Positions 29,748 through 31,896 of a stretch of DNA of 64,000 nucleotides are shown here, one piece after another. The first letter of the stretch is position 1. Every line of letters starts with the position of its first letter. Source of the DNA: Deltaproteobacteria bacterium (GTDB taxonomy: Bacteria; Bdellovibrionota; FAC87; UBA2466); assembly GCA_016196825.1 (NCBI GenBank), contig JACPWY010000062.1, positions 23,427 through 87,426 on the forward strand, read 5' to 3'. Position numbers and translations under genes: made by a program. The notes beneath the pieces were generated by a model. The model did not search any database. It saw only the letters and a list, made by a program, of their open reading frames with translations, and was not told the DNA's origin.

Positions 29748-30414
29748 CGCCCCTCTCGACTCTCTTGCCACGGCGCCAGACGGAGTATTCACCGTCTGGC
29801 GTCGGCGGGAGCGCGTCGAATGGGAAGCCGCCCATCTCTTTGAGGCGCTAGGACAGACTATTTCTCGGCTGCGCGGAAAGGATGATCCGGTTTCTTCCTT
29901 GAGCCTTCGAGCCGCAAGCGATGAGCGACGACACGCGGCCCTTTGCCAAGAGATCCTCTCACATCGCTCAGCTCACCACACCCAACACGCGCCATCTGGC
30001 GATGGCCTGCTCGGCCCAACGAATTTGTCTTTAGATAAAAGAGTTCTCTACACCGCTGTCGCAATGGGCTGCGTGACCGAGACTCTGAGCACTGCGCTCC
30101 TTCTTCAGATCCAGCGCCGGGCGAAAAGCCCGCTCATCAAACGAGTTGTTCACGAAATCTTGGAGGACGAAATCCTCCACGGCCGCATCGGCTGGGCCGA
30201 GCTCGCCCACGCCCGCCTCAAAGGCAGTGTGAATTGGCTAGCTCCGCATCTCGCCGACATGATCGCAACAGCTATCCAGGAAGAGGCCAAGCCATTTTCC
30301 AAAGGCCCCGATCTCTCAGAGTGGGGCATTCTCCCTCGCGCCGACGCGCTGGCAATCATGCGCGAAACTGTCGCAAGCGTCATTGAGCCGGGACTGCGGT
30401 CGAGGTTCGCGTAA
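29725..30414 (+). CDS. Ferritin-like (di-iron) domain protein
   Basis: WEAAHLFEAL, SDERRHAAL, TETLSTALLL and EDEILHGRIGW give two E and two ExxH ligands; GTG start overlaps the Cys-rich ORF by 23 bp. Confidence 0.72.
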   Translation: MTIPRKSSAPLDSLATAPDGVFTVWRRRERVEWEAAHLFEALGQTISRLRGKDDPVSSLSLRAASDERRHAALCQEILSHRSAHHTQHAPSGDGLLGPTNLSLDKRVLYTAVAMGCVTETLSTALLLQIQRRAKSPLIKRVVHEILEDEILHGRIGWAELAHARLKGSVNWLAPHLADMIATAIQEEAKPFSKGPDLSEWGILPRADALAIMRETVASVIEPGLRSRFA

Positions 30415-30415
30415 C

Positions 30416-30624
30416 TAATCCCTCAGCTCGATTGAATTTGGTCCAATCGGCGAGGGGATTTTGGCCGACCGCGAGGACGCACAAGAGAGGCCCCGGAGGC
30501 GTGTTTATTAGAACCGGAACATGCCACCGGGCATGTTCCGGCATCTCCGATCCGAATGCGGAGGACGAAGTGGTCGGTCAAAAGCACCCGCCCAGTGGCC
30601 AAATTCAATTGAGCTGAGGGATTA
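30416..30624. mobile_element. MITE-like long palindrome: 28-bp terminal inverted repeats (two mismatches) with TA ends, internal inverted segments and apical hairpin
   Basis: 30416-30443 pairs with 30597-30624; TTTTGGCCGACCGC pairs with GTGGTCGGTCAAAA; CCGGAACATGCC-accg-GGCATGTTCCGG at 30514-30541. Confidence 0.6.
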
Positions 30625-30627
30625 ATT

Positions 30628-31125
30628 CTACCTCAACGCCGCGAGCGCCTTATCATAATTGGGCTCGCTCGTAGTCTCGGCGACCTGCTCGGTATAGAGA
30701 ACTTTATTATTTGCATCGAGCACCACGACCGACCGCGAACACAACCCCTTCAGGCCACTGTCCAGAATTCGTAAGTGGTAATCATCGGCGAAAGAGCTTC
30801 GAAACGCCGAGAGCATCTCCACATTCTGAATCCCTTCAGCCCCGCAAAAACGCTTCTGCGCAAAGGGCAGGTCCATCGAGATGCATAAGACGACCGTGTT
30901 CGCAGCACCGGCAGCCAACTCGTTGAATTTGCGCACGCTCATCGCGCAGGTGCCGGTGTCGACGCTCGGAAAAATATTGAGGACCTTTTTCTGGCCTGCG
31001 AAGTTCTCAAGCTTCACTTCGGAGAGATCCGTTTTCACCAGCTTAAAGTCGGGTGCCTGAGTCCCCACCGCGGGAAGCTCCCCCACCGTCTTCACCGGAT
31101 TTCCCTTCAAAGTAATGGATGCCAT
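30628..31125 (-). CDS. tpx: Thiol peroxidase (atypical 2-Cys peroxiredoxin)
   Basis: MASITLKGNPVKTVGELPAVGTQAPDFKL...FPSVDTGTCAMSVRKFN; ATG at 31125, not the ORF-track start. Confidence 0.95.
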   Translation of the reverse strand: MASITLKGNPVKTVGELPAVGTQAPDFKLVKTDLSEVKLENFAGQKKVLNIFPSVDTGTCAMSVRKFNELAAGAANTVVLCISMDLPFAQKRFCGAEGIQNVEMLSAFRSSFADDYHLRILDSGLKGLCSRSVVVLDANNKVLYTEQVAETTSEPNYDKALAALR

Positions 31126-31260
31126 GATTTCTCCTTCTGAAAAAACAGCCTGAAGCCTACACCGCTCGCTCCGGCCAGTCGACTCGACAAAAAAATTGAC
31201 TTGAGCGCAGGGTGTGCGGAATGAGTGGAATATATGGGCGACGACCGCCAAGGAGGCCCC

Positions 31261-31896
31261 ATGAAGATGGCTCTTCTCATCTCCACACTCGCGCTTTCGG
31301 CTTTCGGCTACCCGGCCCACTGGTGGACGCCGGTCCCCTCGGAAGGGGCGCCCGCGTGGGAAATTCTCCCGCAGGCCGCAAATGCCGGTGAGGTGATCCT
31401 GTCGAAACGAAATGAGCTTGGGATACTCTCCAATTTCGCCGCAACTCCTTTTGATTTCCGTGGCCACCATTTCGCAAGCCTCGAGGGCCTGTGGCAGTCG
31501 CTGCTTTTTCCGGAAGGACCGCGCGATGAGAGAGCCCTCTTCCAGGGCCTCAAATGGAGCCACACCCGCGTAGAGGTGGCTGAGCTCACCGCCTTTTCTG
31601 CCAAGGCCGCCGGCGAGGAGGCAACCGCCAACATGAAAAAAATGGGAATCAATTGGGTCACCCTCGACGGTAAGAAGATGGAGTACTGGACTTCGAAGAA
31701 AGCAGAGCACTACCAGATCATTCGAGAGGCCACTCTGGCCAAGCTCTCCCAGAATCAACGGGCCCGCGAGATTCTTCTCTCAACGGGTGATCTCACTTTA
31801 AGACCCGATCATCACCAGGAAAAGGACGCGCCTCCGGCCTGGCGCTACTTCGAAATACTCATGGAGCTGCGCGCCGATCTTCGGAAAACTCTTTAG
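31261..31896 (+). CDS. Secreted NADAR/YbiA-like protein
   Basis: Signal peptide MKMALLISTLALSAFG; LGILSNFAATPFDFRGHHFASLEGLWQSLLFP resembles the NADAR N-terminal motif. Confidence 0.68.
   Translation: MKMALLISTLALSAFGYPAHWWTPVPSEGAPAWEILPQAANAGEVILSKRNELGILSNFAATPFDFRGHHFASLEGLWQSLLFPEGPRDERALFQGLKWSHTRVEVAELTAFSAKAAGEEATANMKKMGINWVTLDGKKMEYWTSKKAEHYQIIREATLAKLSQNQRAREILLSTGDLTLRPDHHQEKDAPPAWRYFEILMELRADLRKTL

Follow-up and report, generated by a model that had tools for sequence, protein, structure and literature searches.

The window, the 64,000-nucleotide stretch of DNA analysed here, carries a 209-bp palindrome that begins with TAATCCCTCAGCTCGATTGAATTTGGTC and ends with GGCCAAATTCAATTGAGCTGAGGGATTA. 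The terminal 28 bp form an inverted repeat with two mismatches, and both mismatches are G.T/T.G wobbles when read on the + strand. The element lies within the gap between two convergent genes (Table 1), 1 nt past the stop codon of the upstream gene and 3 nt before that of tpx, and overlaps neither stop; the positions of the two stop codons agree with the spacing originally claimed. The name tpx is upheld by the Pfam match of this gene, while the 'ferritin-like' assignment of its upstream neighbour has no Pfam support. The reading frame adjoining tpx (31225-31896 of the window, + strand) shows a weak similarity to NADAR and phage GP30.3, under the Pfam cut-offs.

Table 1. Coordinates (window numbering) of the palindromic element, its parts and the flanking gene ends.
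Feature	Position	Strand	Evidence or remark
Whole palindromic element, A-type arms	30416..30624	+ (core strand)	Ends, fold, own-genome copies, R2 match 30453-30589
Left outer arm (terminal inverted repeat), terminal TA	30416..30443	+	Alignment with 15 A-type relatives
Right outer arm, inverse of the left with two G.T wobbles	30597..30624	-	Alignment with A-type relatives
Inner stem, left half	30459..30472	+	Fold; helix 1 of the covariation alignment
Inner stem, right half	30570..30583	+	Fold; covariation alignment
Conserved structured core: CGAGGACGCACAAG..GAGGCC..GGAGGCG (apex) ..CGCGGAGGACGAAG	30472..30570	+	Common to copies with unrelated arms
Alternative apical hairpin CCGGAACATGCC-ACCG-GGCATGTTCCGG (12-bp stem)	30514..30541	+	
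Stop codon TAA of the upstream gene	30412..30414	+	
tpx (thiol peroxidase/redoxin), convergent neighbour	30628..31125	-	Pfam Redoxin 5.7e-33; stop 30628-30630 (CTA on +)

Folded as RNA, the 209-bp element reached -121 kcal/mol on the + strand (z = -10.3) and -116 on the - strand (z = -10.2), and none of 200 shuffled sequences was as stable on either strand. The folding of the palindrome is far beyond chance. The sequence and these z values of about -10 on both strands confirm the original prediction of a near-perfect palindrome, and the second inverted block and the 12-bp apical stem that it placed inside were both found. Two opposite-strand open reading frames (30432-30617 and 30423-30608) do exist, and as proposed they are by-products of the palindrome.

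The DNA search of the host genome (3.54 Mb, a draft in 74 contigs) that had been suggested as a check showed the element to be highly repeated. About ten near-complete relatives with the same A-type arms were recovered at 74-90% identity, together with fragments, and the middle part of the window copy recurred at many places inside a different palindrome. The B-type copies, with TAGAGCCTATCCC ends, number about 30 and are each about 177 bp long; about 45 related B-type matches were found. The covariance model R2 described below gave 83 matches, mostly about 130-210 bp long. Their ends fall into at least 12 unrelated outer-arm families (AATCCCTCAGCTC, GAGCCTATCCC, GAACCTATCTC, GAGCGCGTTGC, GAGTGCGTAAC, CTAAACAGGGACGC, CTAGTGCTCC, AGCAGGTCC, CTAATGAGGTC, TTAACAGTCTCC, CTAAGGGGTT, CTAACAGGAGCC), each a near-perfect inverted repeat of about 25 bp, around one conserved folded core.

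The apices are exchanged as well. The alternative apical hairpin of the window copy is part of an insert which, in a subset of copies, takes the place of the usual GTGCCCTCTGGGCAC apex; one other copy (L012) combines this long apex with B-type (GAGCCTA-type) arms, and a relative from another genus (L031) bears a third apex type. In that genus, three A-type relatives (L031, L034, L038) have a far longer apex made of two further hairpins (CCCCACTTTTGC.., CCCCAATCGGC..), which suggests that apical modules are exchanged.

Shortened copies are also present. Two have lost the apical hairpin (L326, L327), others are half elements, and six are solo outer hairpins of 38-46 bp (L314, L318, L323; L018, L019, L025). 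We rejected the solo hairpins as independent units; they are better explained by loss of the interior through deletion between short repeats that both arms carry, and deletions between short repeats can account for the shortened copies at large. Since many copies are decayed, truncated or internally deleted, the family has the look of a mobile repeat under turnover. The element is dispersed in multiple copies, shorter than 500 bp, bounded by terminal inverted repeats and free of any transposase gene, as MITEs are. The window segment is probably one copy of such a mobile repeat, MITE-like and non-autonomous. A MITE-like character had been anticipated, and is borne out by some 80 dispersed copies, by the near-perfect terminal inverted repeats and by the target duplications that part of the arm families show.

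Covariation was analysed in an alignment of 46 copies of the core and inner stem, which left out all long-apex copies and hence the window copy. The R2 structure was set by hand from the helices seen in this alignment and replaced a first, automatic RNAalifold model. Pairing was kept in 92.9% of the cells, and 20 of the 28 pairs showed double-sided changes; in helix 1, the inner stem, this was true of 14/14 pairs across the copies. None of 500 shuffles reached any of five covariation measures, and slid controls were only 27-47% paired. The window copy, which had no part in the training of R2, was matched with 64.5 bits (E 9.3e-15). These data show that the fold of the element is under constraint. 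The original prediction had reasoned that a single genomic copy with covariation would speak against a MITE; the element is multi-copy with covariation, and the rule does not apply.

If double-stranded DNA alone were relevant, the arms should contain as many G.T as A.C mismatches. On the core strand, G.U exceeded A.C 53 to 22 in the arms of the element's own family and 76 to 33 (p 5e-5) in 57 copies from other phyla, related copies not being independent. At the base of the apex, one G.U pair is nearly constant, occurring in 42/46 family copies and in 55/57 aligned matches from other phyla, part of the latter set having been selected by a pattern that fixes this pair. The excess of G.U favours a core that works in a folded, single-stranded form, be it as RNA or as DNA that is transiently single-stranded; part of the excess could stem from common descent or from a mutation bias. 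A structured RNA had been put forward as an alternative to a MITE. The structure is upheld by the covariation and by G.U outnumbering A.C on one of the strands, but the choice between the two falls away: both hold together.

R2 found matches in 27 of the 291 genomes of the phylum, the remaining 264 thus serving as a negative control. Scanning 85,462 species with a gapped pattern of the core gave at least 120 places. From the matches listed, 57 places in other phyla were picked for complementary arms and folded; nearly all of them folded into one long hairpin of the same design, in which two internal loops (roughly (C)GAGGC/AACGAAG and GGA/GA) are conserved beneath a GCGTAC..GTACGT apex. Most were scored by R2, with E down to 1.6e-13, and the model also picked up further copies beyond those chosen by the pattern (L248, L250, L240, L189). 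In an alignment of 57 such matches, 26/27 pairs carried double-sided changes and none of 500 shuffles was as good; this alignment was fitted to the R2 model and so leans towards it. The organisms among the matches listed include Nitrospira, Nitrospirae, Acidobacteria, Acanthopleuribacter, Rokubacteria and several deltaproteobacterial lines, as well as Aegiribacteria, Omnitrophota, Chitinivibrionia and Clostridia. The complete Nitrospira genomes searched carry 29-32 R2 copies each.

At the curated Rfam score, the window locus, 16 further loci and 18 loci from other phyla had no match apart from unrelated neighbours. Plasmids searched by blastn with the core and viral contigs searched with one pattern gave no match, and the open-licence literature yielded no description of the core letters, nor of relevant MITEs in Bdellovibrio or Nitrospira. 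Judged from sequence comparison, the copies most likely form a widespread superfamily that is held together by its structured core and is undescribed as far as the searched libraries show.

The flanks of the copies were then compared. In the GAG.. arm families, 23 of the 42 scored ends had identical 3-mers on both sides (12 TTA, 10 TAA, 1 CAA), as against a permutation mean of 9.0, and none of 10000 permutations was as high (p<1e-4); the 42 entries include several mis-assigned A-type ones which are unable to match, so that the signal is only diluted. The other arm families have TA on both sides, which is weak taken alone. The A-type copies have TA nearly always on the right and mostly on the left, some being without TA on one side. 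No exact 3-bp duplication was found in these copies, the window copy included, which has only TA, and no target duplication was seen in the Nitrospira copies. A double-strand cut with target duplication is thus well supported for some arm families only. Tourist/PIF-Harbinger and IS5-type elements make a 3-bp TWA target duplication and have ends starting with G. In our element, a 3-bp TTA/TAA duplication was seen in the GAG.. families only, whose ends likewise start with G; the arms of our element are not conserved, and no IS5-type partner with such ends was found.

Two insertions can be read directly. At C43:162574-162753 of the host genome, a solo A-type arm has been entered by a B-type element precisely at its TA (L054/L028), a nested insertion that gives a relative age. 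At C54:3534-3711, the element (copy C54:3570; L026/L056) lies inside a terminator-like hairpin, GAAAAAGCGTGGAGAAC..GTTCTCCGCCTTTTTC, which is restored when the flanks are joined. A general preference for terminator hairpins was rejected: joined flanks folded at -15.1 versus -14.3 for shuffled partners (sd 0.36), with a symmetry p of 0.18. Because tpx synteny is not kept in the relatives, no orthologous empty site for the window copy was found by that route.

Many copies lie at the ends of genes. With gene ends taken from open frames and not from annotation, 37 of the 100 element boundaries overlapped or abutted a stop codon that ends a long open frame, compared with 353/5301 control TA positions (6.7%). 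One or both boundaries were at a stop codon in 31/50 elements, and six elements lie where two convergent neighbours both end. For comparison, within the window, stop codons stand to intergenic sites as 26:235 for all TA (10%) and as 11:49 for YTAR (18%). In all arm families of the host genome, A or G follows the terminal TA, which makes the junction TAA or TAG; a TA stop codon that received an insertion would thus be restored.

In Nitrospira, a stop codon was touched by 28/80 boundaries, mostly on the right. In the two Nitrospira genomes sampled (L389-L428), the elements are about 126 bp long and have their right end at a stop far more often than the left. It follows that the transcript of the abutting gene carries the core strand's complement, which argues against a simple sense-strand function in mRNA there. 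The orientation to the abutting gene is largely fixed in these two genomes, but not in the genome of the window, where copies face either way.

The search for a mobilising enzyme through PF01797, PF13358 and PF01609 in the 74 contigs of the draft genome found no transposase whose ends match the element ends searched. Four Y1_Tnp genes exceed the Pfam cut-off, and two of them lie within 39-bp inverted repeats. The ends of the Y1 genes found are unlike those of the element, and no core occurs within the four loci above the cut-off. The two flanked genes (L048:1167-1984 and L051:1112-1887, on C12 and C64) are RAYT/TIRYT-like, their inverted repeats share TAGGCC(T/G)AATAGGTAGCGG, and they are candidate TIRtrons of the kind known from PMC3733652. 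As obvious partners of the element they were rejected, their inverted repeats being of different sequence. No element ends were recognised at the PF01609 (DDE_Tnp_1) loci. One of these is an insertion sequence on its own short contig (L383; C36, 1434 bp) with a 34-bp inverted repeat, AACTAGGGGCGTATTTATGACGCCC.., whose ends differ from all arms. The only DDE_3 gene, of IS630 type, is on a contig of 1.4 kb (L301; C39, 1449 bp) and has no matching inverted ends; the first 300 bases of this contig look compositionally foreign and, at a genome contamination of 3.5%, it may be a contaminant or a chimera.

These results allow the possible origins to be compared. An intrinsic terminator serving both convergent genes would fit a hairpin that sits between their 3′ ends, and had been envisaged, but no stem followed by a T-run is present on either strand and the sequence belongs to a dispersed family of which some copies adjoin gene starts; this explanation is highly improbable. 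The original prediction had also pointed to the TA ends as a mark, if a weak one, of an IS630/mariner-type origin. TA does occur at both ends of the window copy and in several other arm families; against this stand the single DDE_3 gene without matching ends, the lack of TA on one side of several A-type copies and the fact that the clearest duplications are of 3 bp, TTA or TAA. We regard a classical mariner-derived MITE as improbable, and this and the terminator are the weak explanations.

The chief rivals are Y1 transposition and a kept RNA element. Under the former, an HUH/Y1 enzyme of the RAYT or TIRYT kind would recognise one DNA strand by its folded core; insertion would then occur 3′ of a short target, at a single side and without duplication. 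The strand-specific wobbles, arms that change freely provided that pairing is kept, the lack of duplication in the Nitrospira and A-type copies and the four Y1_Tnp genes all fit such a route, but exact 3-bp duplications in most GAG.. copies are unexpected from Y1 enzymes, and the Y1 loci found show neither the ends nor the core of the element. We consider this proposal unlikely. A slightly better case can be made, from the folding and covariation, the G.U bias and the position at gene ends, for an ancient spread followed by domestication, in which copies would be retained as structured RNA at mRNA 3′ ends for stability or RNase III processing. The copies of the host genome, however, lie in either orientation to the abutting gene, the abutting gene in Nitrospira transcribes the complement of the G.U strand, and decayed copies are many; we consider domestication rather doubtful. 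The single-strand, kept-RNA and mobile-repeat readings partly overlap, so that our confidences in them do not sum to one.

A MITE-like mobile repeat with a core that is best read as RNA-like or single-strand-DNA-like remains the preferred interpretation. The unit is a long hairpin with variable paired outer arms, an inner stem of variable sequence and a conserved core with fixed internal loops and an apical hairpin; an enzyme provided in trans would move it. A junction of TA followed by A or G would result from insertion at TA or TWA, restoring the stop and leaving the gene intact. What keeps the core may be a role as a folded single strand, as RNA or as single-stranded DNA during movement. 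The window copy probably inserted into the few bases that separate the stops of the two convergent genes, and would then provide both with a structured, non-terminator 3′ region.

Known bacterial MITEs, such as Correia elements, ERIC, RUP and Chunjie (reviewed in PMC10969869), or QMITE1/2 of Coxiella, of which QMITE2 overlaps C-termini by 1-10 bp (PMC5896051), are likewise small, palindromic, dispersed, gene-free and strongly folding, and often adjoin or overlap gene 3′ ends. They are defined, however, by terminal repeats within about one genus, whereas here the ends vary and the core is conserved across phyla. Some resemblance to Correia, ERIC or Chunjie elements may nonetheless exist. REP/BIME and TIR repeats associated with RAYT/TIRYT are hairpins with strand-specific conserved unpaired bases beside the stem, mostly at gene 3′ ends, and REP dimers occur within long palindromes in Anabaena and Halothiobacillus (PMC3733652). 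Our element shares the hairpin, the strand-specific unpaired bases and the location with REP/BIME. REPs, by contrast, measure 20-40 bp and are tagged by GTAG or CGTC. The present unit spans about 130-210 bp and contains two conserved internal loops; CGTC lies within a stem where present, and part of the families has a 3-bp duplication.

More broadly, we tentatively propose, as a possibility that we rate well short of probable, a pan-bacterial class of mobile elements defined by a folded, strand-specific core and not by its ends. In such a class the arms would need only to pair and could be replaced freely, and insertion at stop codons would be safe, the stop being rebuilt by the ends. Catalogues of small bacterial repeats mostly treat one genus at a time and rely on end sequences, while one core model here links several phyla and offers a concrete, searchable definition for repeats unnamed in the RNA libraries searched. 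It also raises the testable question of whether the reader of the core is a transposase, a ribonuclease or neither. For the genomes concerned, the element explains false small open reading frames at gene 3′ ends, and would give a simple account of how mobile repeats build up at stop codons without harm to genes.
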